Shown here: positions 1-16,784 of the stretch, piece after piece
Position numbering within the stretch: position 1 is the first letter of the stretch
Layout: each line of letters opens with the position of its first letter
Assembly: GCA_945639745.1 (NCBI GenBank)
Contig: CALZEK010000007.1
Coordinates: 1-17,624, forward strand
From: an uncultured Bacillaceae bacterium
GTDB lineage: Bacteria > Bacillota > Bacilli > Bacillales > Amphibacillaceae
Direction of reading: 5' to 3'
DNA: 17,624 nucleotides
Notes under the pieces: model-generated
Told to the model about the DNA's origin: nothing
Databases searched by the model: none
What the model saw: only the letters and a program-made list of their open reading frames with translations
Translations under genes and position numbers: made by a program

Positions 1-33
1 CTATTTGATATGATTGATATGATTATGAAGTAG
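1..33 (+). CDS. C-terminal tail of an upstream gene (partial), possibly trigger factor
   Basis: Reading from base 1 in frame 1 gives ten codons (LFDMIDMIMK) and a TAG stop at 31-33. The stop lies 42 bases before clpX, a normal intergenic distance. In Bacillus and Staphylococcus the gene just upstream of clpX is tig (ribosome-associated chaperone trigger factor), so synteny suggests its C-terminus. Ten residues cannot confirm this and I see no diagnostic motif. The frame could also be chance open reading. Confidence 0.3.
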   Translation, partial: LFDMIDMIMK

Positions 34-75
34 ATGGAAATAAAAAATGAGTTAAACACTTAGGGGTGAGGTATA

Positions 76-1359
76 ATGTTCAAATTCAATGATGAAAAAG
101 GACAATTAAAATGTTCGTTTTGTGGAAAAGATCAAGAATCAGTTCGTAAATTGGTCGCTGGACCAGGTGTATATATATGTGATGAGTGTATCGAGCTTTG
201 TACAGAAATTGTTGAAGAAGAGATTGGTACTCAAGAAGAAGAAGAAGTTGAATTTAAAGATATTCCTAAACCAAAAGAAATATGTGATACTTTAGATAGT
301 TATGTAATTGGACAAGATCAAGCTAAGAAAAACTTATCAGTAGCTGTATATAACCATTACAAACGTGTTAATTCAACTAAGAAAACAGATGATGTTGAAG
401 TTTCAAAAAGTAATATAGCAATGATTGGTCCAACAGGTAGCGGTAAAACATTACTCGCTCAAACCTTAGCACGAATTATTGATGTACCTTTTGCTATTGC
501 CGATGCTACATCATTAACAGAAGCAGGTTATGTTGGAGAAGATGTTGAAAACATTTTGTTAAAACTAATTCAAGCAGCAGATTATGATGTTGATCGTGCT
601 GAAAAAGGTATTATCTATATTGACGAAATTGATAAAGTTGCCCGTAAATCTGAAAATGCATCAATCACACGTGATGTTTCAGGAGAAGGTGTTCAACAAG
701 CCTTATTAAAAATTATTGAAGGAACTGTTGCTAGTGTACCGCCACAAGGTGGAAGAAAGCATCCACATCAAGAATTTATTCAAATAGATACATCAAATGT
801 TCTCTTTATCGTAGGTGGTGCATTTGATGGTGTTGATGATATTATTAAGCGTCGTTTAGGTAAACAAGTCATAGGATTTGGTGATGATTCTGGTGAAGTA
901 GAATTAGAAACGCCTGAATTACTTGCTAAAGTATTACCTGAAGATTTATTAGGTTATGGTTTAATCCCGGAATTTATCGGTAGATTACCAATTATTGCAA
1001 GCTTACAACCATTAGATCAAGATACTTTAATTGAAATATTAACTAAACCTAAAAATGCTTTAATTAAACAATATCAAAAATTATTCGAGATTGATGAGAT
1101 GGAACTTGAATTTGAAGAAGAGGCCTTAATTGAAATAGCTAAAAAAGCAATGGAACGCAAAACGGGTGCACGTGGACTTAGGTCAATCATTGAAACAATT
1201 ATGCTAGATATTATGTTTGAACTCCCATCCCGTACAGATATTGAAAAATGTATCATTACAAAAGATACTGTCCTAAATGAAGAAAGAAATCCTAAAATTG
1301 TCTTCAAAGATGGGACAGTAATTGAGAGCGTTAAAGACTTGCCAAAAGAAAGTGCATAA
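76..1359 (+). CDS. clpX: ATP-dependent Clp protease ATP-binding subunit ClpX
   Basis: AAA+ unfoldase that recognises tagged or misfolded proteins and threads them into the ClpP chamber in the cytoplasm. The 427-aa length is normal. The N-terminal zinc-binding domain has C13-x2-C16 and C35-x2-C38. Walker A is GPTGSGKT at 118-125, followed by the pore loop GYVG, Walker [10 protein letters not shown], the RKH loop (GGRKHPH) and the ClpP-docking IGF loop (KQVIGFGDD). Every hallmark of a ClpP-partner ClpX is present. The ATG at 76 follows a purine-rich ribosome site (AGGGGTGAGG, 62-71). A strong hairpin terminator follows, so it is probably transcribed separately from lonA. Identification is certain. 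Confidence 0.98.
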
Positions 1360-1380
1360 ATTTTGTTAAGAATTAGATAG

Positions 1381-1457
1381 AGGCTGACTCGATTAATTTT
1401 GCTCCGTTTATTCGTTTTAATATAAAATGGAGTTATTAATCGAGCAGTCTTTTTTTA
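1381..1457 (+). terminator. Long stem-loop terminator between clpX and lonA
   Basis: The 5' arm 1381-1396 pairs with 1436-1450: nine pairs (CTCGATTAA with TTAATCGAG), one bulged A at 1387, then six more including a G·U. Inside the 39-base loop, CTCC and GGAG plus flanking A/T can extend the stem. A run of seven T residues (1450-1456) follows the 3' arm. This is a classic intrinsic terminator for clpX. It covers the upstream end of the longest lon reading frame, which argues against that longer start. Confidence 0.85.
1399..1426 (+). promoter_or_regulatory. Candidate lonA promoter inside the terminator loop
   Basis: TTGCTC (1399-1404), a 16-base spacer and TATAAA (1421-1426) resemble a vegetative sigma promoter with a weak -35 box. 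It would start transcription near 1433, in the descending arm of the clpX terminator, and supply lonA with its own promoter. It rests on motif match only; an AT-rich region offers other -10 candidates near 1471-1479. Confidence 0.35.
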
Positions 1458-1504
1458 CTAAAAATAAGAATACTATTATATTGGAGTCGTATGGAGGTTT
1501 CGTT

Positions 1505-3832
1505 ATGGATAATCAGCTAAAAGAATTACCTTTAATTGCCTTACGAGGACTACTTGTTTATCCTTCGCTGACTATTAATTTAGATGTCGGTAGGAAAAAA
1601 TCAATTAAAGCAATTGAAGAAACAATGCTAAATAATAAACAGATTATTTTAGTATCGCAAAAAGATTTAATGGTTAATGAACCAAAAGAAAAAGATATAT
1701 TTAATGTAGGCGTTCTTGCTAAAATAACTAATTTACTTAAATTACCTAATGATACTTTACGGATTACAATTGAAGCGTTAAATCGCATAAAAATTGACGA
1801 ATTTAAGGACGAAAACGATTTATTTAAAGCTAGCTATACTAAATTAATTGATGAACCTGTTGAAGAATTTGAAGCAAAAGCTTTGAATCGTCAACTTTTA
1901 GAACATTATAAATCTTATGTTGAAACAACACAGAGAATAACTGAAGAGAAATTAGCTCAAGTACTCGAAATAGAAAATCCACATAAGCTCATTTATTCAA
2001 TTGCTAATGAATTATCAATCGCAATTAAAGAAAAGCAAGGTTTATTAGAAATAGACGATGTTTTTGAAAGGAACAAACAATTAATTGTACTTATTTCAAC
2101 AGAGCAACAAGTTGTTGATTTAGAAAAAGAAATTGGTAAACGTGTTCAAGCATCAATGGAAAAAACTCAAAAAGAATTCTTTTTACGCGAGCAATTAAAA
2201 GCAGTTCAAGAAGAATTAGATGATTCTGAAGGTAACTTAAGTGAAGTTGATAAATTAAAAGAAAAAATTAAAGAAGCAAAAATGCCTGAAAATGTGAACG
2301 CAGCTGCATTAAAAGAATTAAGTCGTTATGAAAAGATACCACAAAATTCTGCAGAAGGATCTGTCATTTTAAATTATTTAGATTGGTTAACATCAATTCC
2401 TTGGTATGAAAAAACAGAAGATACAATTGAAATTAACTATGCTCAAACTATTTTAGATGAAGATCATTATGGCTTAGATAAAGTTAAAGAAAGAATACTT
2501 GAATATCTGTCTGTTCAAAAATTGACTAATACTATCAAAGGACCAATTCTTTGTTTGGTTGGACCACCAGGTGTTGGAAAAACATCACTTGCAAAATCAA
2601 TTGCTCGTTCAATTAATCGTAATTTTGTAAGAATATCTTTAGGTGGAGTACGTGATGAAGCTGAAATTAGAGGTCACCGCAGAACATATATAGGAGCTAT
2701 GCCAGGCCGGATTATTCAAGGGATGAAGCGTGCTGAATCAATTAATCCTGTTGTTTTACTTGATGAAATCGATAAAATGGCAAGTGATATGAGAGGCGAC
2801 CCATCTTCTGCTATGTTAGAGGTATTAGATCCTGAACAAAATAGTAAATTTAGTGATCACTTTATTGAGGAAACATATGATTTATCCAATGTACTATTTG
2901 TTGCTACTGCTAACAGTGTAACAAGTATCCCAGGTCCACTTCTTGACCGAATGGAATTAATTTCATTATCTGGTTATACTGAAATCGAAAAAAAATATAT
3001 AGCTAAAGAACATTTAATCCCTAAGCAAATTAAAGAAAATGGTTTAACAAAAGCACAAATACAAATTAGAGAAGATGCATTACTAACTGTTATTCGTCGT
3101 TATACACGTGAAGCAGGGGTAAGGGAGCTTGAAAGGACAATTGCAGCAATTTGTCGAAAAGCGGCTAAAATGATAATTTCTGGTGAAAAGAAACGTGTGA
3201 TAGTCACAAATAAACTGTTAATTGAAATGCTAGGTAATTATAAATATTCTTATGGTTTAATGGAAAAGACAAACCAAATCGGAACAGCAACAGGACTAGC
3301 ATACACAGCATTTGGTGGCGATATTTTATCAATTGAAGTTGCTCATTATCCTGGAAAAGGGAAATTAATTCTAACAGGAAAACTGGGTGACGTTATGAAA
3401 GAATCAGCACAAGCTGCATTTAGTTACATTCGTTCACGGATTGATGAATTAAATGTTGCACCTGACTTTCATGAGAAAAATGATATTCATATTCATGTAC
3501 CAGAAGGAGCAACACCAAAAGATGGTCCTTCGGCAGGGATTACTATCGCAACAGCATTAATTTCATCTTTAACAGGTAACCCTGTAAAAAAAGAAGTCGG
3601 AATGACGGGTGAGATAACTTTAAGAGGTCGAGTTTTACCGATTGGTGGTTTAAAAGAAAAATCACTAAGTGCACATCGTTCAGGTTTAAAAACAATTATT
3701 ATACCAGCTGAAAACGAAAAGGATATTGATGATATACCTGAAAGTGTGAAAAAAGATCTAACATTTATTCCTGTTACACATTTAGATGAAGTTTTAAAAC
3801 ATGCATTAGTGGGTGTGAAAAATGAAAATTAA
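1505..3832 (+). CDS. lonA: ATP-dependent protease LonA
   Basis: Cytoplasmic serine-lysine AAA+ protease that degrades misfolded and regulatory proteins. From the ATG at 1505 the product is 775 aa, as expected for LonA: an N-terminal LonN substrate domain (about 1-200), a helical coiled region, an AAA+ module with Walker A GPPGVGKT at 353-360 and Walker B ([10 protein letters not shown]), then the S16 protease domain. The catalytic Ser is S676 (DGPSAG) and the catalytic Lys is K719 (second Lys of GGLKEK), with the same 43-residue spacing as E. coli S679/K722. I chose 1505 because GGAGGT lies at 1493-1498 and family homology starts there (ELPLIALRG). A start at 1427 would lie inside the upstream terminator and add 26 unrelated residues. 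The 3' end overlaps ysxC by 11 bases. The large N-terminal domain and lack of a membrane anchor rule out LonB. Confidence 0.97.
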
Positions 3833-4406
3833 TAAAGCAGAAATAATCACAAGTGCAGCAAAAAAAGAACAATATCCAACAACTAATTTAAAAGAAATTG
3901 CTCTGGCAGGTAGGTCAAATGTCGGAAAATCATCTTTTATTAATAAAATTATAAATCGCAGAAATTTAGTACGGACATCTTCTAAACCAGGAAAAACACA
4001 AACGTTAAATTTTTATAATATTAATGATGTTTTTTGTTTTGTTGATGTACCTGGTTATGGTTATGCCAAAGTACCCAAAGCAGAAAAAGAAAAATGGGCG
4101 AGAATGATGGAAGAATATTTTGAAACGCGAGAGAATCTAGGTTTAGTTATGTTAATTGTTGATTTGCGTCATAATCCGACACAAGATGATTTTAACATGT
4201 ATCATTATATAAAACATTTTGATATACCAGTAGTAATCGTGGCAACAAAAGCTGATAAAGTAAAGAAAAGTATGAAACAAAAAAATATTAATCAAATAAA
4301 AATAAAAATGGATATTGATTTAAATGATCCTGTCATTGCCTTTTCATCAGAAACGGGAGAAGGTAAAGATTTAATTTGGCGTCATTTAACACAATTCATT
4401 AAATAA
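3822..4406 (+). CDS. ysxC: Ribosome biogenesis GTPase YsxC/EngB (YihA family)
   Basis: Essential GTPase needed for late 50S subunit assembly; cytoplasmic and ribosome-associated. At 194 aa it matches the family. G1 is GRSNVGKS at 30-37, the T-rich G2 switch follows (SSKPGKTQT), G3 is DVPGYG from 75, G4 is TKAD at 142-145 and G5 is the SSETGEG segment. Its ATG lies inside the last codons of lonA (11-base overlap), so translation is probably coupled and both are co-transcribed. This position after lonA and before hemA is conserved in Bacillus. Certain. Confidence 0.97.
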
Positions 4407-4437
4407 AAAATAATCGCATTTCTGCGATTATTTTTTT
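4407..4437. terminator. Bidirectional hairpin terminator between ysxC and the membrane gene
   Basis: TAATCGCA (4411-4418) pairs perfectly with TGCGATTA (4423-4430) around a TTTC loop. A-rich sequence precedes the stem and T residues follow it (4431-4439), so it works on both strands. The stop codon of the convergent minus-strand gene (4428-4430) sits inside the 3' arm. Confidence 0.9.
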
Positions 4438-4910
4438 TTGTATAATGTGTAAAAACCTATACCAATTAATATAATTGGCCAAAAAGAATCTAAAAATTCA
4501 GTTACACCATAGAACCATTTAAAAGCATTGGGTAATGTGACAGAAAAAATAAGAATCAGTGCGATACCTATTAAAATTAATCCAGGAATTAATCCACTAT
4601 ATGTCTGTAAATATCTTATTACAAATGCAACACCAGCAATTAATAAGAAGATAGACCAATGATCAATCCAAAAACTATAATTTTCTAAGCCGTGGAAATG
4701 AATACCTAATCCGAGTAATAAGACACCTGTAAAGATATGTTGATATTCATGGGTAGAGTAGCTATGAATTAAAAAGACAATGCCAATAATTATTAAGACA
4801 GTTGGCCATGAGTAAAAATTATCAAACAATGAAAGATTTAACTGTTTGATTAAGAAATATGTACCAAGACCAATTAATAAATATGCTACAAAATGATTTT
4901 GTTTCTTCAT
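4428..4910 (-). CDS. Six-helix membrane protein with LiaI/LiaF-like transmembrane repeats (YsxD-like position)
   Basis: A 160-aa integral membrane protein with no soluble domain. Six short hydrophobic segments lie at about 7-22, 34-49, 59-72, 84-99, 106-124 and 142-157. They form three similar two-helix units, each a glycine-rich helix (for example LLIGLGTYF, VLLLGLGIHF, LILIGIALIL) followed by a Trp-led helix (WPTVLIIIG, HWSIFLLIAG, FWPIILIGIG). This pattern is typical of the LiaI/LiaF-like transmembrane region, often linked to envelope-stress sensing. In Bacillus subtilis the membrane gene ysxD occupies the slot between ysxC and hemA, so this is probably its counterpart. A GAGGTG ribosome site precedes the ATG (complement of 4920-4925). 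The gene runs against its neighbours, and its role is unknown. Confidence 0.8.
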   Translation of the reverse strand: MKKQNHFVAYLLIGLGTYFLIKQLNLSLFDNFYSWPTVLIIIGIVFLIHSYSTHEYQHIFTGVLLLGLGIHFHGLENYSFWIDHWSIFLLIAGVAFVIRYLQTYSGLIPGLILIGIALILIFSVTLPNAFKWFYGVTEFLDSFWPIILIGIGFYTLYKKK

Positions 4911-5149
4911 TATTCAAGACACCTCACTAAATTAACATCTCTCTCTAAATATAACTTTATCTTTTATAATTGTACAGTTAAAGTAGAAAATCGTCTTTTA
5001 TTTAACGAAATTGAGTCAAAAGTGTGTAAATGTAATGTAAAGTTTATATTAAGTTCATATTCAACTGTTACTAGCCTTAGCTAAATGTTAAAATATTAAT
5101 TATAAAGTATTAAATTAAGCTCATTCATCATTACAAAGGAGCAGGTAAT
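4911..5149. other. Divergent intergenic region upstream of hemA
   Basis: About 239 very AT-rich bases separate the minus-strand membrane gene from hemA and must hold promoters for both. For hemA, an extended -10 box (TG-T-TAAAAT, 5086-5094) is the best candidate, giving a leader of about 50 bases; no good -35 is visible. An AT-rich partly symmetrical stretch (5088-5112) could be an operator, but I find no clean PerR or Fur box. No convincing gene is present. Confidence 0.4.
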
Positions 5150-6502
5150 GTGCATATTATTCAAATAGGATTTAATTATAAAATAACTCCAATTGATATT
5201 AGGGAAAAATTTTCATTTGCTGAAGAAACGATTGTAGAAGCAATGAAAGAATTAAATGAACGTAAAAGTATTTTAGAAAATGTGATTATTTCTACGTGTA
5301 ATCGAACAGAGATATATGTTGTTACTGATCAACTTCATACAGGACGCTATTATGTCAAAGAGTTTTTAGCAGATTGGTTTAAAATTGAAATGAATGATTT
5401 TATTCCTTATTTGCAAATTATTGATAATGACAATGCTATAGAGCATTTATTACGCGTATCAACAGGGATTAATTCGATGGTTTTAGGTGAAACACAAATT
5501 TTAGGACAAGTAAGAGATGCGTTTTTATTAGCACAAAGACATCAAATTACCGGAACGATTTTTAATGAATTATTTAAACGAGCAATTACATTTGCTAAAA
5601 GAGCTCACCGCGAAACAGCGATAGGAGAAAATGCTGTTTCAATTAGTTATGCAGCAGTTCAGTTATTAAAAAGTAAGTTTGCAAATCTACAAGAAAAAAA
5701 GGTCGCAATTTATGGAGCTGGAGAAATGGGTAAATTAGCGATTCAAAATTTAATTGGTTCTGGTGTAACAGATATAACAATTGTTAACCGTTCAATGGAA
5801 CGAGCTTTAGGGCTTGCGGATAAATATAATGTCAAATCTGTTTCTACTGACCAATTAAATGAATTGTTGACTGACGTAGATATTTTAATAAGTTCTACTT
5901 CTGCATTAACACCTGTATTAAATAAAGCAGATTTAGAGGCGGTGCAAGAAAAACGTAACCAGCCCTTATATTTAATTGATATTGCTGTACCAAGAGATTT
6001 AGATGCAAATATTTCAGAATTAGATAATATGTATTTATATGATATTGATGATTTACAACACATTGTTGATGAAAATATTTCAAAACGAAGTAGAGCAGCA
6101 GAACAAATTGCTATAAGTATAGAATATGAAGTTGTAGAGTTTAAAGAATGGATTGCTAATCTTGGAGTTGTCCCAGTTCTTGCAGCGATTCGTAATAAAG
6201 GATTAACAATTCAAGCAGAAACATTAGCTAGTATTAATAGAAAGATACCAAATTTGACAGAAAGAGAACAAAAAGTAATAAGCAAACATACAAAAAGTAT
6301 TGTAAACCAAATGATTAAAGACCCGATTATTCAAGCTAAAGAAATGGCTAGTCAAGATAACTCAGCTGAGTTGTTAGCATTAGTTATTGATATATTTGGC
6401 CTTGAAGATAGATTGAAAAATGAAGTTGTCAATCGAATTGAACTGACAAATAAACTTGCTTCATTAGAAGAAAGAGATGAAGAATATGCTAATTATCGTT
6501 AA
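5150..6502 (+). CDS. hemA: Glutamyl-tRNA reductase HemA
   Basis: NADPH-dependent reduction of glutamyl-tRNA(Glu) to glutamate-1-semialdehyde, the first committed step of the C5 tetrapyrrole pathway; cytoplasmic. The 450-aa length is normal. The catalytic cysteine is C50 in STCNRTEIY. The substrate-binding signature GETQILGQVRDAF, the NADPH Rossmann loop GAGEMG at 189-194 and the C-terminal dimerisation helices are all present. Translation starts at GTG 5150, preceded by AAAGGAG (5135-5141) at good spacing. It heads the hemACDBL operon. In Bacillus and Staphylococcus the next gene is hemX, whose product restrains HemA in S. aureus; no hemX follows here. Function certain. Confidence 0.97.
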   Translation: MHIIQIGFNYKITPIDIREKFSFAEETIVEAMKELNERKSILENVIISTCNRTEIYVVTDQLHTGRYYVKEFLADWFKIEMNDFIPYLQIIDNDNAIEHLLRVSTGINSMVLGETQILGQVRDAFLLAQRHQITGTIFNELFKRAITFAKRAHRETAIGENAVSISYAAVQLLKSKFANLQEKKVAIYGAGEMGKLAIQNLIGSGVTDITIVNRSMERALGLADKYNVKSVSTDQLNELLTDVDILISSTSALTPVLNKADLEAVQEKRNQPLYLIDIAVPRDLDANISELDNMYLYDIDDLQHIVDENISKRSRAAEQIAISIEYEVVEFKEWIANLGVVPVLAAIRNKGLTIQAETLASINRKIPNLTEREQKVISKHTKSIVNQMIKDPIIQAKEMASQDNSAELLALVIDIFGLEDRLKNEVVNRIELTNKLASLEERDEEYANYR

Positions 6503-6521
6503 GTAATCTTAACGATAATTA
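6490..6521. repeat. Perfect 14-bp inverted repeat spanning the hemA stop codon
   Basis: TAATTATCGTTAAG (6490-6503) is perfectly repeated in inverse at 6508-6521 around a 4-base TAAT loop. The hemA stop codon (6500-6502) is inside the left arm. No T-run follows, so it is not a standard intrinsic terminator. It may attenuate, stabilise or mark cleavage of the hemA-hemC transcript. Its position is exactly where hemX sits in relatives. Confidence 0.85.
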
Positions 6522-6565
6522 GATTTATTATGTTTATATTAATGACTAAATAAGGAGTGTTTTTC

Positions 6566-7489
6566 TTGCGTGAATTAATTGTTGGGACTCGTGAAAGTAA
6601 ATTAGCTATGATTCAAACAAATTATATTATTAATCAATTAAATAAAGTGAAAGTTAAAAACCCTATTCAAATTAAAAAAATTGCAACTAAAGGCGATAAA
6701 ATATTAAATGTAGCTTTAGATAAAGTTGGTGGAACAGGCATTTTTATTAAGGATTTAGAAACATTATTAAGAAATAAAGAGATTGATTTTGCAGTACATA
6801 GTATGAAAGATTTAAATCCGGAAATAGATGAAGATTTTGTTATCGCAGCAGTGCCTGAACGTGAAGATCCACGAGATGCCTTTATATCAAGAAATCATTT
6901 AAAGTTGGCAGATCTTAAACCAGGTGCTGTGATTGGAACAAGTAGTGCTAGACGGGGCGCGCAAATTAAAGCAATTCGTCCAGATTTAGTAACAAAATGG
7001 ATTAGAGGACCAATCGATTCACGGATAGAACAATTAAACAATGGTGATTTTGACGCGATTATTTTAGCCGTTGCAGGATTAAATAGAATGAATTTAAGTA
7101 AAGAAGTGATTACTGAGTACTTAGAAATAGATCGTTTTGTTCCCTCAGTTGCACAAGGTGCCTTAGCAATTCAATGTCGAAAAGATGACAAGGAATTAAT
7201 TAATATTCTTAAGTTATTAAATGATCCTTTAGCTGAAAAAGCAACACAAGCAGAACGATATACTTTAAGTTTACTAGATGAAGATGAACGAGCACCAATC
7301 GGTGTTTATGCATTTTATAAAAACAATCAAATAACAATTCATACATCAATTGCTTCATTAGAAGGAACTCAATTACTTAATTACGCTGCTACAGGTGAAA
7401 ATTATCAAGATGTAGCTCAAGAAGTAGCAAAGGAATTGATTTCACAAGGTGCATTAACGATTATTGAAACATCTAAACAAGGTTTATAA
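6566..7489 (+). CDS. hemC: Porphobilinogen deaminase (hydroxymethylbilane synthase) HemC, cofactor cysteine replaced
   Basis: Family function: polymerises four porphobilinogens to hydroxymethylbilane on a dipyrromethane primer bound by thioether to a cysteine. From TTG 6566 the protein is 307 aa, close to the usual 310. The AAGGAG at 6552-6557 is its ribosome site; the in-frame GTG at 6557 overlaps that site and is rejected. Conserved features include GTRESK, HSMKD (catalytic Asp), PEREDPRDAF, GTSSARR, RG-x3-SR and AIQCR. However, the segment that reads EGGCQVPIG in typical enzymes reads DEDERAPIG here, aligning without gaps. Glu241 (codon 7286-7288) therefore takes the place of the cofactor cysteine (E. 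coli C242), and the only cysteine is C204. The frame is intact and other active-site residues are kept, so this is not plain decay. Family identity is sure; catalytic competence is uncertain. Confidence 0.93.
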   Translation: MRELIVGTRESKLAMIQTNYIINQLNKVKVKNPIQIKKIATKGDKILNVALDKVGGTGIFIKDLETLLRNKEIDFAVHSMKDLNPEIDEDFVIAAVPEREDPRDAFISRNHLKLADLKPGAVIGTSSARRGAQIKAIRPDLVTKWIRGPIDSRIEQLNNGDFDAIILAVAGLNRMNLSKEVITEYLEIDRFVPSVAQGALAIQCRKDDKELINILKLLNDPLAEKATQAERYTLSLLDEDERAPIGVYAFYKNNQITIHTSIASLEGTQLLNYAATGENYQDVAQEVAKELISQGALTIIETSKQGL

Positions 7490-7490
7490 A

Positions 7491-8240
7491 ATGAATTTAG
7501 CAAATAAATCTATTCTTGTCACTAGAGAAGCAAGCCAAGCAATTGAATTCAATCAAAAAATTAAAGATGCGTCTGGAAATGTATTAAACGCACCTTTACT
7601 TAAAATTAATCCAATAAAATTCGAGTCTTTTAATCCAACAAATTATAATTGGCTTTTTTTTACAAGTGCTAACGGGGTTGAAAAGTTTATAAATCAATTA
7701 ACTAATTTAGCATGGCTTAAAACAATTAAAATTGCTGTTGTTGGTCATAAAACTGAAGATGCTTTAAAAAAACATCATTTAGTGGCTGACTTTATACCAA
7801 CTGTTTACAATGCAGTAGAAATGGCTAAGGAATTTACTACTAAATACCCTCAAGCAAATAAGATATTACTTGTTCGTGGTAACTTATCACGTAATGTTTT
7901 ACCAAACTTTTTTCAAAAAATGAATATTGACTATGATACTGTTGTGGTTTACGAGACAGTTATAAATAAAGAAATTAAACCAAGACTAAATTGGATTTTT
8001 AAAACAAAGCAAATTGATTATATTACCTTTATGAGCCCGTCGACAATTGATAATTTTATGACACTGCTTGATGAAAAATATCATAATCAAGCGCTAAAAA
8101 TTAAAGTTATTTGTATTGGTACGACAACAGAAAAATTAGCTTTAGAGAAAGGGTTTAAACATGTCAGTATACCTAATCAATTTACTGCTGAAAGTATGTT
8201 AGAAAAAATAACAGAAATGGAAGGGATGACAAAATCATGA
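7491..8240 (+). CDS. hemD: Uroporphyrinogen-III synthase HemD
   Basis: Cyclises hydroxymethylbilane with inversion of ring D to give uroporphyrinogen III. This is a fast-diverging family, recognised here by scattered motifs in a 249-aa two-lobed protein: ILVTREASQ at the N-terminus, [44 protein letters not shown] and [15 protein letters not shown]. Position between hemC and hemB supports it. I chose the ATG at 7491, one base after the hemC stop, with AAGG (7479-7482) upstream; a TTG at 7464 would add nine residues overlapping hemC. The stop overlaps the hemB start in an ATGA junction, so translation is probably coupled. Confidence 0.9.
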
Positions 8241-9217
8241 TAGATTTACCTGAATTCGACCGTCATCGTCGGTTGAGATCATCAGAAGCAATGCGTTCAC
8301 TTGTCAGAGAAAATGAAATTTCAGTAAATGACTTATTATATCCGTTATTTATTATTGAGGGAAAAAATATAAAGAATGAAATCGTTTCAATGCCAGGAAT
8401 TTATCAACTATCTCTTGATTTATTAGCAGAGGAAATTAAAGAAATAAAAAAACTAGGTATCCAGGCTGTTATGCTTTTTGGTGTGGTAACAAATAAAGAT
8501 GAAGAAGGAACAGGTGCTTATTCTGAAACAGGAATTATTCAAGAAGCAACAAAGTTAATTAAACAAGAAGTACCTGAAATGCTTGTAATTGCTGATACGT
8601 GCTTATGTGAATATACATCTCATGGTCACTGTGGTGTGATTGAAAATGGTGAAGTTGCCAATGATCAATCATTAATATTACATGCCCAAACAGCTGTTTC
8701 TCAGGCTCGAGCAGGTGCTGATATTATAGCGCCATCAAATATGATGGATGGTTTTGTAATTACAATTAGAAAAGCATTAGATGATGCAGGCTATCATCAC
8801 ATACCGATTATGTCCTACGCTGTTAAATATTCATCAGCTTTTTATGGTCCGTTTAGAGATGCAGCTGATAGTACGCCAGAGTTTGGTGATCGTAAACAAT
8901 ATCAAATGGACCCTAGTAATCGCTTAGAAGCATTAAGAGAAGCTGAATCCGATGTAATAGAAGGTGCTGACTTTTTAATTGTTAAACCAGCACTTTCATA
9001 TTTAGACATTATTCGTGATGTTAAAAATAATTTTAACTTACCAGTCGTTGCCTATAACGTAAGTGGTGAATATTCAATGGTTAAAGCGGCAGCTCTAAAT
9101 GGGTGGATTGATGAACAAGCCATTGTTATGGAGAAATTGACAAGTATGAAGCGTGCAGGGGCTAATTTAATTTTAACTTATCATGCTAAAGATGTAGCTA
9201 AGTGGTTAACAAAATAA
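8237..9217 (+). CDS. hemB: Delta-aminolevulinic acid dehydratase (porphobilinogen synthase) HemB
   Basis: Condenses two 5-aminolevulinate molecules to porphobilinogen; cytoplasmic, usually octameric. The 326-aa length is normal for this TIM-barrel enzyme. Both Schiff-base lysines are visible: K197 ([17 protein letters not shown]) and K250 ([11 protein letters not shown]). The cysteine-rich site [15 protein letters not shown] (C122, C124, C132) marks a zinc-dependent form rather than the aspartate-rich magnesium form. The start overlaps the hemD stop by four bases (ATGA), with an AAGGGA-type ribosome site inside hemD. It is followed 21 bases later by hemL. Certain. Confidence 0.97.
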
Positions 9218-9238
9218 AAAATAAAGGTGGAAATATTA

Positions 9239-10522
9239 ATGAAAACATTTAATCGTTCAATTGATGCATATAAAGAAGCAGTTGATTTATTACCAGGTGG
9301 TGTAAATTCACCAGTTAGAGCATTTAAATCAGTTGGTATGTCACCAATCTTTATGGAATCTGGAAAGGGATCTAAAATAACTGATATTGATGGAAATGAA
9401 TATATTGATTACGTATTAAGTTGGGGTCCTTTAATTTTAGGACATGCAGAAGATAATGTTGTTAAAAAGCTTCAAGATGCTGCACTTAAAGGAACAAGCT
9501 TTGGTGCACCAACAACGCTTGAAAATGAATTAGCTCAGATGGTGATTGATCGTGTACCTTCCGTTGAAATGGTTCGAATGGTTAACTCAGGAACAGAAGC
9601 TACAATGAGTGCATTACGATTAGCGCGTGGTTATACAGGACGGAGTAAAATATTAAAGTTTGAAGGGAATTATCATGGCCATGGTGACTCGCTATTAATT
9701 AAAGCAGGTTCTGGTGTAGCTACTTTAGGTTTACCAGATAGTCCAGGCGTTCCTGAATCTGTTGCCAAACAAACAATTACAGTGCCTTATAATGATACAG
9801 AAAGTGTAAAAGCAGCTTTTGAAGCATATGGAGATGATATTGCAGCTGTAATTGTTGAACCTGTTTCTGGTAATATGGGTGTTGTCCCTCCTCATAAGTC
9901 ATTTCTTCATGACTTAAGAAGTCTAACAACAGAATATGGTTCATTACTTATAATTGATGAAGTAATGACAGGATTCCGTGTAGGATATAATTGTGCTCAA
10001 GGCTATTATAATGTAGATGCAGATATTACTTGTTTAGGTAAAGTAATTGGTGGTGGTTTACCAGTTGGTGCTTATGGCGGTAAACGTGAAATTATGGAAC
10101 ATATTGCACCAGCAGGTAACATTTATCAAGCGGGTACATTATCTGGTAACCCTTTAGCGATGGTAGCTGGCTTAGCAACCTTAGGTGCATTATCTGAAGC
10201 TGATTATGAAGAAATGAATAAAAAAGTTGATCGTTTAATTAAAGGTTATCGCGAAGCTGCTGATAAAAATAACATCCCACTTCAAATTAACCGTGCTGGC
10301 TCAATGATGGGTGTATTCTTCACAGATGAACCAGTAACTAATTTCGAACAAGCACAAACATCTGATTTACAGTTGTTTAAAAAATATTATCAAGGCATGA
10401 TTGAAGAAGGAATATTCTTACCACCTTCACAATTTGAAGGGCTCTTTATGTCAACGGCTCATACAGACGAAGATATTGATGATACAATTAGTGCGATTGA
10501 AAAAGTATTTGCTACATTATAA
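9239..10522 (+). CDS. hemL: Glutamate-1-semialdehyde 2,1-aminomutase HemL
   Basis: PLP enzyme converting glutamate-1-semialdehyde, the product of HemA, to 5-aminolevulinate. At 427 aa it has the normal length. The opening [11 protein letters not shown], the [15 protein letters not shown] segment, the YHGHGD motif and the PLP-lysine K268 in [17 protein letters not shown] are all present. The ATG at 9239 is preceded by AAAGGTGG (9223-9230). An in-frame GTG at 9227 lies inside that ribosome site and is rejected. It is the last gene of the hem operon, so HemA and HemL, which act consecutively, bracket the cluster. Certain. Confidence 0.97.
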
Positions 10523-10525
10523 ATC

Positions 10526-10550
10526 ATAAAGCCTGGCATACAGGCTTTAT
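10526..10550 (+). terminator. Hairpin after hemL, probable weak terminator
   Basis: ATAAAGCCTG (10526-10535) pairs perfectly with CAGGCTTTAT (10541-10550) around GCATA, four bases after the hemL stop. The T-rich sequence begins only about ten bases later (10561-10567), so termination may be incomplete and some readthrough into the valS leader is possible. Confidence 0.6.
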
Positions 10551-10554
10551 TCCC

Positions 10555-10583
10555 TTGCATTATTTTTAAAAAAATTGTATATT
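10555..10583 (+). promoter_or_regulatory. Candidate valS promoter
   Basis: TTGCAT (10555-10560), a 17-base spacer and TATATT (10578-10583) fit a vegetative promoter just upstream of the T-box leader. Transcription would start near 10590. The -35 matches the consensus at its first three bases only, and an overlapping -10 (TATTAT, 10580-10585) is also possible. Confidence 0.5.
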
Positions 10584-10589
10584 ATAAGA

Positions 10590-10853
10590 AGTAATTTAAT
10601 AGATACATACGTTGCAAGGGAATAGTAGAAACTGAACATCCTAGAGAGAGAATCACTGGTGGAAGATTCTTATGTTTACTTTTACGGGTCACCCTGAAGT
10701 AACTTTATTGAACAAGCAGTAGGTAAAGTCGGTGTCAAACATCGTTAAAAAATATTGAGTGTATAATTACAGTAGATAATTATAAATCAAGGTGGTAACA
10801 CGGAATTTATCTTTTCGTCCTTTATTAAATATTAAAGGGCGAAAAGTTTTTTT
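10590..10853 (+). promoter_or_regulatory. T-box riboswitch (valine-tRNA sensing) leader of valS
   Basis: This 5' leader lets uncharged tRNA(Val) prevent termination before valS. Stem I is closed by GTTGC (10611-10615) with GTAAC (10699-10703), then a kink-turn-like A/GAA element, then AGGG with CCCT (10692-10695). The specifier loop has AGTA (10624-10627) opposite the codon GTC (10688-10690), followed by a purine as expected; GTC is a valine codon and matches the downstream gene. The distal AGAGAG and TGGTGG elements are present (10643-10662). The T-box core AAGGTGGTAACACGG is at 10789-10803. The terminator pairs CTTTTCG and CCTTTA (10811-10823) with TAAAGG and CGAAAAG (ending 10846), followed by seven T residues. 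Confidence 0.93.
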
Positions 10854-10872
10854 ATTTCAAGGAGGCAATTAA

Positions 10873-13515
10873 ATGACTAATAAAAAAAGACAATTAGCAC
10901 CAAAATATAATCCGACTGAAGTAGAAGCGGGAAGATATAAATTTTGGTTAGATGGCAAATATTTTGAAGCAACAGGAGATAAAAATAAAGAACCTTTTTC
11001 AATCGTTATTCCCCCACCAAATGTGACAGGAAGACTTCATTTAGGTCACGCATGGGATACAACAATGCAAGATACTATTTCACGTATGAAAAGAATGCAA
11101 GGTTATGATGTTCTCTGGCTTCCTGGTATGGATCACGCAGGTATTGCTACACAGTCAGTCGTTGAAAATAAATTAAGAGAACAAGGAAAAACACGCTATG
11201 ATTTAGGTAGAGATAAATTTATTGATACAGTGTGGGACTGGAAAGAAGAATATGCAAATCATATTAGAGAGCAATGGGGTAAATTAGGTTTAGGTCTTGA
11301 TTATTCTAAAGAACGTTTTACGATGGATGAAAAATTATCAGATGCTGTTCAAGAAGTTTTTGTTAAATTATACGAAAAAGGCTTAATTTATCGTGGTGAG
11401 TATATTATAAACTGGGATCCAGTTACAAAAACGGCACTATCTGATATCGAAGTGATTCATGAAGAAATTAATGGTCATTTTTATCACATGCGATATCCAA
11501 TTAAAGATTCTGAAGAAGTTATTGAAATTGCTACAACACGCCCAGAAACAATGTTAGGAGACACAGCAATTGCAGTTCATCCTGAAGACGAACGTTATCA
11601 ACATTTAATCGGTGAAAAAGTTGTTTTACCAATTGTTGGTCGTGAGATTGAAATTGTGGCTGATGATTATGTTGATATGGAATTTGGTTCAGGAGCTGTT
11701 AAAATTACACCCGCTCATGATCCAAATGATTTCGAGATTGGTAACCGTCATAATCTAGAACGTGTTTTAGTGATGCATGAAGATGGAACAATGAATGGAA
11801 ATGCAGGTAAATATGAAGGTATGGATCGTTTCGAATGTCGAAAAGCGATTGTTAAAGATCTTCAAACTTTAGGTGTTTTAATTAAAATTGAAGACCACCT
11901 TCATCAAGTAGGTCATTCAGAACGAAGCGGTGCTGTTGTAGAGCCATATTTATCGACACAGTGGTTTGTTAATATGCAACCATTAGCAGATCGTGCAGTT
12001 GAATTACAAAAAGGTGAAGATAAAGTAAACTTCGTACCTGAACGCTTTGAACAAACATACTTAAACTGGATGGAAAATATCCATGATTGGGTAATTTCAC
12101 GTCAATTATGGTGGGGTCACCGAATTCCTGCTTGGTATCATAAAGAAACAAATGAAGTATATGTTGGCAAAGAAGCACCAGAAGATATTGAAAACTGGCG
12201 TCAAGACGAAGATGTGTTAGATACTTGGTTTTCAAGTGCTCTATGGCCATTTTCAACAATGGGTTGGCCAGACGAAGAATCTGAAGATTTTAAACGCTAT
12301 TTCCCAACAGATGTCTTAGTGACGGGTTATGACATTATATTCTTTTGGGTAGCAAGAATGATTTTCCAATCACTTGAATTTACTGAAGAAAAACCATTTG
12401 AAGATGTTTTAATTCATGGTCTTATTAGGGCATCTGATGGACGTAAAATGAGTAAATCATTAGGTAATGGTGTTGACCCAATGGATGTCATCGAGAAATA
12501 TGGTGCGGATTCTTTACGTTACTTTTTACTTACTGGTTCAACGCCTGGACAAGATTTACGCTTTTACTGGGAACGTGTTGAATCAGTCTGGAATTTCGCT
12601 AATAAAATCTGGAACGCTTCACGTTTTGTATTAATGAATATGGAAGACTTTAAATATGAAGATATCGATTTGTCTGGGGAGCTAACTTTACCTGATAAAT
12701 GGATTTTAACACGCTTAAATGAAACAATTCAAAATGTTACTCAAAATACAGACAAATATGAATTTGGTGAGGCAGGACGTGCACTATATAACTTTATTTG
12801 GGATGATTATTGTGATTGGTATATTGAAATGGCAAAAATTCCATTAAATAGTGATAATGAAGCTGCAAAACAAACAACACGTTCAGTGCTTGCTCATGTC
12901 TTAGATCAAATTATGCGCATGTTACATCCGTATATGCCATTTATCACAGAAGAAATATGGCAGCAATTACCACACGAAGGTGAGTCAATAACAGTAGCGG
13001 CTTGGCCTACTTATAATGAAGAATATCATGATGAAGTGGCTTCTAAAGAAATGAAACAACTTGTTGATATTATTAAATCAATTCGTAATATTCGTGCAGA
13101 GGTTGATACACCAATGTCACGTGAAATACCAATTATGATTAAAGCTAAAAACGATACTGTTCAAATAACATTAGATAAAAACAGAAGTTATTTAGAGCGC
13201 TTCTGTAATCCAAGTGAATTAACAATAGCAACAGAAGTAAGGGCTCCAGAAGATGCAATGACAGCAATCGTAACAGGTGCAGAAATATTTTTACCGTTAG
13301 AAGGTTTAATAGATTTTGAAAAAGAAATCGCTCGATTAGAAAAAGAATTAAAAAAATGGGAAAGTGAAGTTGAATTAGTAACAAAAAAATTATCTAATGA
13401 AGGATTTGTCAATAATGCACCAGAAAAAGTAGTTGAAGCTGAAAGACAAAAGCAAATAGAATACACAGATAAACATGAAAAAGTAAAACAACGTTTAGAA
13501 GAATTAAAGAAATAA
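10873..13515 (+). CDS. valS: Valyl-tRNA synthetase ValS
   Basis: Class Ia aminoacyl-tRNA synthetase charging tRNA(Val), with an editing domain that removes threonyl products. The length, 880 aa, is typical. The HIGH-type motif is HLGH at 56-59 after PPPNVTG. The CP1 editing insertion carries [12 protein letters not shown]. The KMSKS loop is at 525-529, followed by the anticodon-binding helical domain and a C-terminal charged coiled coil (about 810-880) typical of ValS. The ATG follows GGAGG (10861-10865). Expression is controlled by the T-box leader. In Bacillus and Staphylococcus folC follows directly, but here a three-gene inverted cassette intervenes. Certain. Confidence 0.98.
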
Positions 13516-13528
13516 GGTATTAAATATT

Positions 13529-13563
13529 AAAAGCACAGAATGTATCATACATTCCGTGCTTTT
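13529..13563. terminator. Bidirectional terminator between valS and the convergent serine hydrolase gene
   Basis: AAAAGCACAGAATGT (13529-13543) pairs with ACATTCCGTGCTTTT (13549-13563) with a single A/C mismatch and a short ATCAT loop. T-rich sequence follows on the plus strand and the A-rich 5' arm gives T residues on the other strand, so it can end both valS and the minus-strand cassette. Confidence 0.9.
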
Positions 13564-13566
13564 CTT

Positions 13567-14859
13567 TTATTTTTCATGCGTTAATATTTCTTTTACTTGT
13601 AGTTGGTAGTCTTCGTTATGAATGAATTTTGATTCAAAAGAGTTCAAATTATTTTGTAATAGTATATTTTGCCAAATATTTAAATCATTAAATAAAAGGA
13701 CGAGTTCATATGAATCTCGGTTATGTTCTTTTGCATAAATAGCATCAGTTAAAATAAATTTTGTTGAACCACCTTTTCCACCAAGATATTCAAATCTATC
13801 TTTATTATTTGGATTAAGTTCCATAGGCCATTCCATAATTTGATGAAGAATTTCAGTTGCAGCTTTAGGAAATTCATCATATGCAATCATTTGAAGTAAT
13901 TTACCGTAATCTTGAGCTGTAGAACTTATTAAACGATTTGACCAAATTTTTTCAAATTTATATGATGGAGTATACTTGGTGTTTTCTGCTTGAATTTCAC
14001 CACGGTCTAATTTTTCATTAATATCAATTGCTCGACTAGCATATTCCTTATCAGACATTGATTCTAGTGTTTCAGGACTTATATCTTTATCGTCATAAGG
14101 AATAAGTAAAGCACCAACAATTGGATAAAACGAATCATGTTTATCTAACTTTAAATCTTTTATACGTTTATTGATGTTATTTATTCCGAGTAGATTAATT
14201 AAGTAATCTGTATTAGCATTTGAACTATAAGTTATCATTCCTTTAACAACATCTTGCAAAGTAGCTTCATTATTCATATCTTGAGTTGCTGATAAGCTCT
14301 TTAACCAATCTTCATGTCCACCACCATCAGTACCTTTAATATAAAAATGATTTAATTCTGTCAGAGGAACATAACTATCCTTATTAATTTTACCCTCATC
14401 AACTTGTAAAGCATATTCTATAGCAATTAATATTTTAACAGTACTCGCTAATGGCTGAAGTTCATCAGATTGATATGTAATATAAGCTTGTTTATCTTTT
14501 GTCACATAGAGTGCTGAGTTTGTAGGATTTTCTTTTAAATGATTCACAATGTAATCAGGATTATCACGTAATAAGAAAAAAGCAAGCATACTCACCATTA
14601 TAATAATTAAACCATAAATAATTAATCGAGATTTTGTATAAGTTCTTTTATCTAATAAAATAAAAATAATTAATCCAATTAATAAAGCTAAAACAAAATT
14701 AATCTTAAATAACACAACAGAAAGAACTATACCTAAGACGATAATGATTGATGCTGAAGCCTTTATGTATGCTGATCTTCTTCGGTAATTTTTATTTAAA
14801 AAAGGAAATAAAGTAAAAATAATCATACCAATTAAAAAAGTCCAAATATAAATATTCAT
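13567..14859 (-). CDS. Membrane-anchored serine hydrolase, class A beta-lactamase/transpeptidase fold
   Basis: A 430-aa protein with three or four N-terminal membrane segments (about 2-22, 36-68 and 79-97), then an extracellular penicillin-recognising domain. Active-site motifs, numbered from the ATG: SxxK = S139-T-V-K142 (LASTVK), SxN = S212-S-N214 (MITYSSN, normally SDN) and K362-G-G (YLGGKGGST, normally KTG). A clear class A general-base ExxLN motif after SxN is not visible, so beta-lactam hydrolysis is doubtful; a carboxypeptidase or esterase acting at the envelope is as likely. ATG 14859 is chosen because GGAGG lies seven bases upstream, while an in-frame GTG two codons earlier is only two bases from that site. 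It is last in the minus-strand cassette, 94 bases after the second ATP-grasp gene, which may mean a separate promoter. Substrate unknown. Confidence 0.85.
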   Translation of the reverse strand: MNIYIWTFLIGMIIFTLFPFLNKNYRRRSAYIKASASIIIVLGIVLSVVLFKINFVLALLIGLIIFILLDKRTYTKSRLIIYGLIIIMVSMLAFFLLRDNPDYIVNHLKENPTNSALYVTKDKQAYITYQSDELQPLASTVKILIAIEYALQVDEGKINKDSYVPLTELNHFYIKGTDGGGHEDWLKSLSATQDMNNEATLQDVVKGMITYSSNANTDYLINLLGINNINKRIKDLKLDKHDSFYPIVGALLIPYDDKDISPETLESMSDKEYASRAIDINEKLDRGEIQAENTKYTPSYKFEKIWSNRLISSTAQDYGKLLQMIAYDEFPKAATEILHQIMEWPMELNPNNKDRFEYLGGKGGSTKFILTDAIYAKEHNRDSYELVLLFNDLNIWQNILLQNNLNSFESKFIHNEDYQLQVKEILTHEK

Positions 14860-14953
14860 TAACACCCCTCCTCTCTATTCATTTATCTATCTTATACTTT
14901 AATATAAATGAATAATTAATTCTATCGTTTATATATAATGTATAGAAAGATAA

Positions 14954-15802
14954 TTAAATACGTTTTTTTATATGATTAAGATAAAGTTTTAATAAGTTAA
15001 TGTCTGTTGTTTCACTAAGAATTCTTGATCCAACGACATCTTCAATCTCATTAAATAATAATTTACCTTCTTTATTAATTAAGAAATCAATCCCGACAAG
15101 GCCAAAATTAAAATGATTAATTATCTTTTTAACCATATTAATCTCATCTTCATTTAATTGATAAAGTTTAGCTGTACCACCTAGTTTAAAGTTAGCCCTA
15201 AAATCATTTTTATTCTCTCTTAAAACAGCAGCAATTATTTCCTTACCAATGATAAAGACGCGCAAGTCTTTACCCATATCAACATCTGCCGATTGAATAA
15301 TAAAACGATTATTTATTTTATTGTTTAGCACATGAATAAACTTTTCATAATTATCAATTAAAAATACTTGATTTCCGCTTCGTCCATTTACTGATTTTAA
15401 AATAAATGGGTAAGGAAGAGGTGGGTCTATTTGTTTAGATGTGTCAAAATGAAATGTTGTAACAGCGGGCACACCAATTTTAGCGAGTTCGATATGAGTA
15501 GCTGATTTATCATTACAAATGATTGAAGTCTGATAATTATTAAAACAAGAAATGTTTTGCGCATTAAAATGTGCTTGTAAGGTAGGGTCAATTACTCTAA
15601 TCACACAAAAGTCCGGGAGTGTTATCTGTTTATTATAATAAGTTGTTATAAATCTTGTACCGTCGATTCCGATTTGTAGTTTTTCTCTTAATATTAATGT
15701 CAGTTCAATATTTTGTGCTTTTGCTTCTGAAATAAACCAATCGATATAGGATTGGTTATTTACAGCATCTGTTTCCTTATAAATTAACCAACCTTTTTTC
15801 AT
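14954..15802 (-). CDS. RimK-like ATP-grasp ligase, second of a tandem pair
   Basis: A 282-aa soluble protein of the ATP-grasp superfamily, which joins a carboxylate to an amine through an acyl-phosphate. The RimK-like signature is seen in PFILKSVNGRSGNQVFLI (ATP-binding Lys and glycine-rich loop), DLRVFIIGKEIIAAVLR, DFRANFKLGG and VGIDFLI. The final metal-binding motif reads FNEIEDVVGSR, so the usual E-x-N is E-x-E. The N-terminal third, which selects substrate in this fold, matches nothing I can name. Its ATG overlaps the stop of the upstream ATP-grasp gene (ATGA), with GAGGT six bases upstream, implying coupled translation and perhaps a heteromeric or sequential pair. Reaction partner unknown; an amino-acid or peptide ligase is the family expectation. 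Confidence 0.85.
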   Translation of the reverse strand: MKKGWLIYKETDAVNNQSYIDWFISEAKAQNIELTLILREKLQIGIDGTRFITTYYNKQITLPDFCVIRVIDPTLQAHFNAQNISCFNNYQTSIICNDKSATHIELAKIGVPAVTTFHFDTSKQIDPPLPYPFILKSVNGRSGNQVFLIDNYEKFIHVLNNKINNRFIIQSADVDMGKDLRVFIIGKEIIAAVLRENKNDFRANFKLGGTAKLYQLNEDEINMVKKIINHFNFGLVGIDFLINKEGKLLFNEIEDVVGSRILSETTDINLLKLYLNHIKKRI

Positions 15803-16695
15803 TTGTTTACCTCACGATCAATATATTCAATGATTGAATCAGCAACATTAACTCCAGTACAGTCAAGTAAATTTCTAATATGAGCATTTGAATTCACTTC
15901 ACAAATAACTCGTTCTGAATTTTTACCAAAAAGTAAGTCTACTCCAGCAAAATCAAGTCCTAGTGCTTTTGTTGCAGTAATTGCGAGAGATTTTTCTGCC
16001 TCACTAGGTAAATAAGTATCCATTTTTCCACCTGAAGTAATATTAGCTCTAAAGTCGACTTCAGAAGAACGCTTCATTGTTGTAATAACATCATCTCCAA
16101 CAACCTGTAGTCGAATATCTCTTCCATAACTTGATGTAATAAATTCTTGACACATAAATGGCCGGTATCCAATTTTATCTAAAGCATTTTCAACATCAGA
16201 TTTATTATGGACAAGATAAACTTGTTCACCAAAAGATCCAAATGCTTCTTTAATTACAAACGGAAAATTAAAGGATTTAATGGCATGATTTAAAAATTTA
16301 GTATTATTTTCAAACGGATTAATAAAGTTTTTTGGTGCAATAAGTGTTTTAGGTATAGGGAGTTTTTTCTTCGCTAAGATTTGGTAAGATTTAATTTTAT
16401 CATCACTTACTTCTGTTGCATAAGCACTATTAAATAACCGATAACCCATTGCTTCTAAATGATGAGCTAAATAAATATCTTTATCTGTAAAAATAATATA
16501 ATCGATTGATTTTAAAGGGCTTTGACTAAGGAGAGCCAGTTCATTTGTTTTAAGTAAACTATGTATTTCGTTATTTTTCACTAAATGTATTGTATGCCCT
16601 TTTTTAATTGCTGACTCTTTTAACATATTTGCATAATCAATAAATTTATCGCTATATAGACTACCATTGTAAATTATTAGACCATTTAAACTCAT
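15799..16695 (-). CDS. RimK-like ATP-grasp ligase, first of a tandem pair
   Basis: A 298-aa soluble ATP-grasp protein of the RimK/LysX type, which includes ligases adding glutamate or other amino acids to protein tails or small molecules. Visible features are the N-terminal domain (LIIYNGSLYSDKF), the hinge SDDKIKSYQILAKKKLPIPKT, the ATP-binding FVIKEAFGSFGEQVYLV, the DIRLQVVGDDVITTMKR strand, DFRANITSGG and the intact metal-binding CEVNSNAH (E-x-N). The ATG follows GGAGG at nine bases. It heads the minus-strand cassette and is divergent from folC, which encodes another ATP-dependent glutamate ligase; a folate-related role is conceivable but unsupported by sequence. It is paralogous in layout to the next gene, though the two are clearly diverged. 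Confidence 0.87.
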   Translation of the reverse strand: MSLNGLIIYNGSLYSDKFIDYANMLKESAIKKGHTIHLVKNNEIHSLLKTNELALLSQSPLKSIDYIIFTDKDIYLAHHLEAMGYRLFNSAYATEVSDDKIKSYQILAKKKLPIPKTLIAPKNFINPFENNTKFLNHAIKSFNFPFVIKEAFGSFGEQVYLVHNKSDVENALDKIGYRPFMCQEFITSSYGRDIRLQVVGDDVITTMKRSSEVDFRANITSGGKMDTYLPSEAEKSLAITATKALGLDFAGVDLLFGKNSERVICEVNSNAHIRNLLDCTGVNVADSIIEYIDREVNK

Positions 16696-16784
16696 CAGCT
16701 AATTCCTCCGTGTAAAATCATTTAAGTCTTGTTATACTAATATTAATTGATATAAATAATTATACAAGAAATTAAGGTGAAAAG
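16696..16784. promoter_or_regulatory. Divergent promoter region between the ATP-grasp cassette and folC
   Basis: On the plus strand, TTGTTA (16729-16734), a 16-base spacer and TATAAA (16751-16756) form a good promoter for folC. On the minus strand TATAAC (complement of 16731-16736) is a possible -10 for the cassette, overlapping the folC -35. An imperfect inverted repeat (CTTGTTATA at 16728-16736, TATACAAG at 16762-16769) brackets the folC promoter and might be an operator. Confidence 0.55.

Follow-up and report, generated by a model that had tools for sequence, protein, structure and literature searches.

The stretch of DNA analysed here, referred to as the window, comprises 17,624 nucleotides from an uncultured Bacillaceae bacterium (assembly GCA_945639745.1, contig CALZEK010000007.1, positions 1 to 17,624) and contains hemA, hemC, hemD, hemB and hemL consecutively. 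The analysis concerns hemC, whose product was assigned to the hydroxymethylbilane synthases (HMBS, or porphobilinogen deaminase, PBGD; EC 2.5.1.61). A dipyrromethane cofactor bound to a cysteine is a textbook feature of these enzymes. An original prediction, made from the sequence of the window, had claimed that Glu241 replaces the anchoring cysteine in this HemC. In the following, proteins carrying Asp or Glu at alignment column 241 are called acid type and those carrying cysteine Cys type; counts of rows refer to 182 acid and 276 Cys rows, which include repeated loci and correspond to 177 and 268 distinct sequences, respectively. The relevant features of the gene are the following.

6566..7489, + strand: hemC, acid-type hydroxymethylbilane synthase, 307 aa, TTG start (TIGR00212, 321.8 bits; PF01379, 260.3 bits)
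7286..7288, + strand: Glu241 codon GAA, column of the cofactor-anchoring cysteine (Cys241 in B. megaterium, Cys242 in E. coli)
7262..7312, + strand: cofactor-binding loop region, the stretch marked by the original prediction (from sequence and alignment)
7010..7012, + strand: Pro149 codon CCA, position of the RGN-motif Asn (N in all Cys-type rows; P, A, T or S in all acid-type rows)
6713..6751, + strand: active-site lid segment, residues 50-62 (altered in the acid type at 50, 57, 59 and often 62; the window retains Lys62)
6809..6811, + strand: catalytic Asp82 (Asp84 in E. coli), kept in 182/182 acid and 276/276 Cys rows

Residue 241 and family membership

The replacement was confirmed: residue 241 is encoded by GAA at 7286-7288, and the alignment to the B. 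megaterium enzyme (4mlq) runs without gaps through the segment (ERYTLSLLDEDERAPIGVYA / ERVFLKEMEGGCQVPIAGYG). The nearest genome relative, G003, has a HemC 79% identical to that of the window, with Asp at this column; near relatives thus lack the cysteine, and the change is not specific to one isolate. A sequencing or assembly error was rejected, because Asp or Glu is found in separate genomes and in metagenome proteins. The motifs HSMKD, SSARR and RG-x3-SR had been listed as kept, and they are, but the replacement of the RGN-motif Asn by Pro149 in the window had been overlooked.

HemC scores 321.8 bits against TIGR00212, above the curated equivalog cut-off of 164, and its N-terminal domain scores 260.3 bits against PF01379 (cut-off 22.1). 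The C-terminal domain, PF03900, reaches 24.3 bits, just below the cut-off of 26; a precomputed PF03900 label is present on many acid-type relatives. The AlphaFold2 model has a pLDDT (predicted local distance difference test) of 92.2, lowest at residues 41-60, which correspond to the lid. Comparison by Foldseek gave a template modelling (TM) score of 0.89 against 4mlq, and rows 1-32 of the matches consist entirely of HMBS/PBGD entries. Both the catalytic Asp and the cleft arginines of HMBS are present; the cofactor-anchoring cysteine of the canonical thioether enzyme is absent, and Glu241 is found instead. By predicted fold, catalytic residues and curated score the protein is placed in the HMBS family, as a variant lacking the defining anchor residue.

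In comparison with the canonical enzymes (B. megaterium 4mlq, E. coli 1ah5), the acid type is alike in fold, in the catalytic Asp82, in the cleft arginines, in the HSMKD and TSS-x-RR motifs, in its hemA, hemD, hemB and hemL neighbours and in the score of the curated hidden Markov model. It differs by an Asp or Glu in place of the anchoring cysteine, by the absence of Asn149, Leu59 and Thr50 in all 182 rows, and at residue 243, which is mostly Ala. No substitution was found at R9, S11, D44, K81, D82, R129, R130, R147, R153 and R174 in either type, the only gaps being in three short acid rows at R9 and S11, one of which is also gapped at D44.

Distribution and descent of the acid type

Column 241 was evaluated in 262 top-scoring homologues, clustered at 90% identity; this set is the best-scoring part of three homologue searches, two of which were started from divergent acid-type proteins, and is not a random sample. 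The column contains 95 E, 69 D and 96 C, with two unreadable cases (P0015, P0180) and no other residue, so that all 164 non-Cys proteins, out of 260 readable, carry either D or E. The best 120 of 7036 homologues comprise 62 with D, 49 with E, 8 with C and one that ends before the column.

Within the window's family a HemC match is present in 149 of 159 genomes, one in each, and column 241 was read in 93 of them: 32 from a 61-genome set, 21 found among the best-scoring loci and 40 chosen for coverage of every genus. Cysteine was found in 79 genomes and an acid in 14, belonging to six genera. The latter are all seven genomes examined from the window's own genus (G000-G006), together with members of g6 (G011, G070), g10 (G061, G062), g25 (G030), g62 (G107) and g68 (G175). 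All 18 genomes read outside the family have Cys; in the 61-genome set 50 of 56 HemC genes were read, and the six left out (G048, G049, G050, G057, G058, G060) all lie outside the family. A contig scan with general HemC patterns gave 80 loci among the matches listed, all with Cys.

Organism names for the acid type come solely from protein source labels, which include Pseudogracilibacillus sp., Virgibacillus alimentarius (P0059, with D), Virgibacillus sp. W0430 and W0181, Amphibacillus sp. MSJ-3 and Oceanobacillus sp. CAU 1775. These labels do not track the split, as P0073 and P0119, also labelled Virgibacillus, carry Cys. P0007, labelled Pseudogracilibacillus, is 77% identical to the window's HemC, and the organism of the window may be Pseudogracilibacillus-like; the HemC of G062 is identical to P0046, labelled Amphibacillus sp. 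MSJ-3. Virgibacillus alimentarius is a cultured species, and with named organisms such as this among the labels experiments look feasible.

In a tree of 82 rows, built with columns 149 and 241 omitted, a single branch, with a support of 99 in the Shimodaira-Hasegawa-like approximate likelihood ratio test (SH-aLRT), separates the acid type from the Cys part, within which the sequences of other families of the order fall. The rows were chosen by hand, the search was a quick one and many inner branches are weak. The simplest account would be that Cys gave way to an acid once and was not regained in any row of the tree. As judged from the aligned sequences, the swap is clade-wide, conserved and accompanied by co-changed neighbours, and extends beyond the single enzyme originally described.

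A quick tree of 100 acid-type rows contains at least eight changes between D and E at column 241. When 120 acid rows were compared, this was the only column mixing D and E freely with nothing else: four of the five other all-acid columns hold a single residue, and the fifth has 119 D to 1 E. The adjacent loop columns, 238-240 and 242, hold seven to ten residue kinds. A column restricted to D and E amid variable neighbours points to a requirement for a carboxylate rather than to a site at which any residue is tolerated, and the exchangeability of the two acids would be easier to reconcile with an electrostatic or reversible contact than with a rigid one.

Other positions change together with column 241. 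Asn149 of the RGN motif is present in 276/276 Cys rows and in none of the 182 acid rows, where it is replaced by P, A, S or T; Leu59 and Thr50, found in 275 and 260 of the 276 Cys rows respectively, are likewise missing from every acid row. Residue 243 is Val or Ile in 274/276 Cys rows and Ala in 159/182 acid rows. In simulations of the E. coli enzyme, K55 of the lid contacts the cofactor loop (Q243, E239), and N151, equivalent to residue 149 of the window by offset from aligned residues, is among the chain contacts at one stage (PMC3945110). Given these contacts, it is understandable that the lid, the RGN loop and the cofactor loop changed jointly. The co-changed sites may make an acid at 241 possible, or may merely mark shared descent.

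The same alignments bear on whether a residue other than 241, such as C204 or a new nucleophile, anchors the chain covalently. C204, correctly described beforehand as the sole cysteine of the window's HemC, is present in 169/182 acid rows, as this would require; it is, however, equally common in Cys-type rows (256/276). Among C, K, H, Y, S, T, D and E residues, the only one found in more than 80% of acid rows and in fewer than 20% of Cys rows is Thr143, which takes the place of Ile. In addition, 7 of the 164 acid-type proteins (304-311 aa) contain no cysteine anywhere, so that a thioether is impossible in those. Anchoring by another residue is held to be very improbable.

Function in the pathway and hold on the primer

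The hemC genes of the window and of G003 differ by 0.14 nonsynonymous (dN) and 0.97 synonymous (dS) substitutions per site, a sign of purifying selection; as the catalytic residues are also unsubstituted, decay to a pseudogene was rejected. An inactive protein, or one with another role, the tetrapyrrole precursors coming from elsewhere, would agree with Cys241 of B. megaterium being named the invariant cofactor anchor (PMC3949521) and with human Cys261 being described as mutation-intolerant (PMC10577081). Selection and the unchanged catalytic residues argue against it, as does the content of the genomes: all 14 acid-type genomes contain heme or siroheme genes alongside a single HemC match, and a second hemC was found neither in G000 (80% complete) nor in the other 13 (listed as 86-99% complete). 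The five relatives without HemC in the 61-genome set are also without matches for hemE, hemH, hemQ (PF06778) and haem-copper oxidase. Moreover, hemD lies directly 3' of hemC in the window, G061 and G062, which speaks against a changed role. The original prediction had left three options, a new way of holding the primer, inactivity or a changed role; the first is favoured, and the other two are regarded as highly unlikely.

The hemE gene was matched in 12 of the 14 acid-type genomes. In the nine belonging to the 61-genome set, hemE and hemQ were found in 9/9 (in G005 hemE is partial and hemQ is in two pieces), and hemH, CgoX above cut-off and haem-copper oxidase in 8/9 each; a bd oxidase is present in 10 of the 14. 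In G002 and G011 a segment of about 11 kb contains hemC, hemE, hemH, hemY and hemQ. The two genomes in which hemE was unmatched are G061 (86% complete) and G062 (96%), whose gene rows are as follows.

G062, contig C28 (locus L200), 2-11568: SUMT, CbiX, cysJ, cysI, sirC, hemA, hemC, hemD, hemB, hemL
G061, contig C55 (locus L201), 259-9890: cysJ, cysI, sirC, hemA, hemC, hemD, hemB, hemL; SUMT on the same contig

Both rows read as a pathway that starts from glutamyl-tRNA and supplies sulfite reductase with siroheme, with the acid-type HemC as the sole source of hydroxymethylbilane found, and the hem genes of these genomes are apparently kept for siroheme. The G062 row, and that of G061 where read, is of the ordinary kind of siroheme supply operon located beside assimilatory sulfite reductase (cysJI, sirC, SUMT, CbiX); unlike ordinary operons, both have an acid-type HemC, and neither genome has a hemE match. 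We strongly infer that acid-type HemC is functional, the formation of hydroxymethylbilane being deduced from this pathway context. The protein is very probably an HMBS operating without a thioether at site 241, where a carboxylate allows none to be formed.

The acid type probably has a previously undescribed mode of holding the chain during growth. The reading preferred here, with a rough probability of 0.55, is that of a working HMBS in which the primer is held reversibly by the carboxylate of D/E241. The acetate and propionate side chains of the primer, either a dipyrromethane or a primer derived from hydroxymethylbilane, would keep it in the arginine-lined cleft, while its anchoring end would be gripped reversibly by the carboxylate, replacing the permanent thioether. 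The grip could consist of an ion pair or hydrogen bond to a terminal aminomethyl (CH2-NH3+) or hydroxymethyl (CH2-OH) group, and/or of a labile ester to the azafulvene carbon. Porphobilinogens would be added at Asp82 as usual, and hydroxymethylbilane would pass to HemD.

A similar residue change is found in MurA (UDP-N-acetylglucosamine enolpyruvyl transferase), an enzyme of unrelated fold and reaction that is active with Asp in place of its active-site cysteine; that cysteine is not known to carry a permanent cofactor. The Cys-to-Asp change of MurA is likewise natural and affects an essential enzyme (PMC5652432).

Several points weigh against a reversible hold. Lability is to be expected of pyrrolylmethyl esters, and a primer held non-covalently would need to withstand loss over many cycles. 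The intolerance of human Cys261 to mutation implies that an acid alone is probably insufficient there; no biochemistry on acid-type HMBS was found in the open-licence literature, and the AlphaFold2 model is ligand-free. Co-variation is incomplete, since Lys57 of the lid (276/276 Cys rows) is retained in 7/182 acid rows, Lys62 (273/276) in 21/182, including the window, and Lys156 (275/276) in 9/182; the co-changed sites may also reflect shared ancestry of one group instead of compensation. As to the pathway, the hemE of G005 (510 contigs, 9% contamination) is partial, and neither hemH nor CgoX above cut-off was matched there; this one fragmented genome accounts for the hemH and CgoX missing among the nine. 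In G000, the metagenome-assembled genome of the window (80% complete), neither a haem-copper (PF00115) nor a bd (PF01654) oxidase was matched, despite which hemE, hemH, hemQ and CgoX matches are present.

In a different arrangement, the D/E side chain would be bonded to the C1 methylene of an ordinary, permanent dipyrromethane cofactor as a stable ester, the mechanism being unchanged except for oxygen in place of sulphur. Column and loop are the same and the carboxylate is strictly kept, as expected in this case. On the other hand, such esters should ionise readily, and the eight or more D/E interchanges are above expectation for a precisely placed nucleophile, though the loop is mobile; the loop cysteine (Cys261) shifts by 4.4 Å during chain growth (PMC8561815). 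The canonical apo-enzyme quickly forms the thioether-bound cofactor from hydroxymethylbilane (PMC3949521; PMC9714363), and this rapid gain from preuroporphyrinogen would present an electrophile to the carboxylate as well (PMC3949521). On balance, a stable ester is considered unlikely.

A cycle with no standing dipyrromethane is distinctly doubtful. The first porphobilinogen would be parked at D/E241, as an ester or ion pair, three more would be added, and the tetrapyrrole would be released from the carboxylate in each cycle. A labile anchor would ease release at the anchor itself, and the loss of the RGN Asn in 182/182 acid rows, with an altered lid, would be in keeping with such a change. However, the acid type retains all the arginines by which canonical enzymes bind the cofactor rings, and in canonical structures the anchor and the catalytic Asp are separated by the two rings of the cofactor (PMC8561815). 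If true, a cofactor-free cycle would represent a second solution to tetrapyrrole assembly within the same fold.

No report of an HMBS without the anchor cysteine was found among the titles and abstracts matched in searches of the open-licence literature, subscription papers lying mostly outside this scope. Curated annotation calls the acid-type proteins HMBS, though the mechanism-defining residue is absent. A natural group of enzymes lacking the anchor cysteine makes it possible to examine directly whether the primer has to be tethered covalently, how the enzyme counts to four during chain growth and what moves the anchoring loop.

Neighbouring genes

The remaining genes of the hem row are listed below.

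5150..6502, + strand: hemA, glutamyl-tRNA reductase (TIGR01035, 453.9 bits)
7491..8240, + strand: hemD, uroporphyrinogen III synthase, immediately 3' of hemC (PF02602, E 3.9e-55)
8237..9217, + strand: hemB, porphobilinogen synthase (NF006762, 509.1 bits)
9227..10522, + strand: hemL, glutamate-1-semialdehyde aminomutase (TIGR00713, 657.7 bits)

The row is flanked by clpX, lon and engB upstream and by valS and folC downstream, all named by reading the translations alone. The sequence AGGAG immediately precedes the TTG start of hemC at 6566; in G003 the start codon is ATG.

In the window hemA and hemC are separated by 63 bases (6503-6565), and in most other loci compared by about 0.9 kb or more, the intervening stretch presumably being the hemX of Bacillus. 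The two genes are close in L002, L003, L008 and L027, and about 0.9 kb apart in L004, L005, L006 and L011. Loss of this stretch as a partner of the acid swap was rejected, because close spacing occurs sporadically, in Cys types as well, and shows no link to the acid type.

Two adjoining ATP-grasp-like open reading frames are located on the - strand at 14954-16695 of the window, between a beta-lactamase-like reading frame (13567-14865) and folC, as judged by reading alone.
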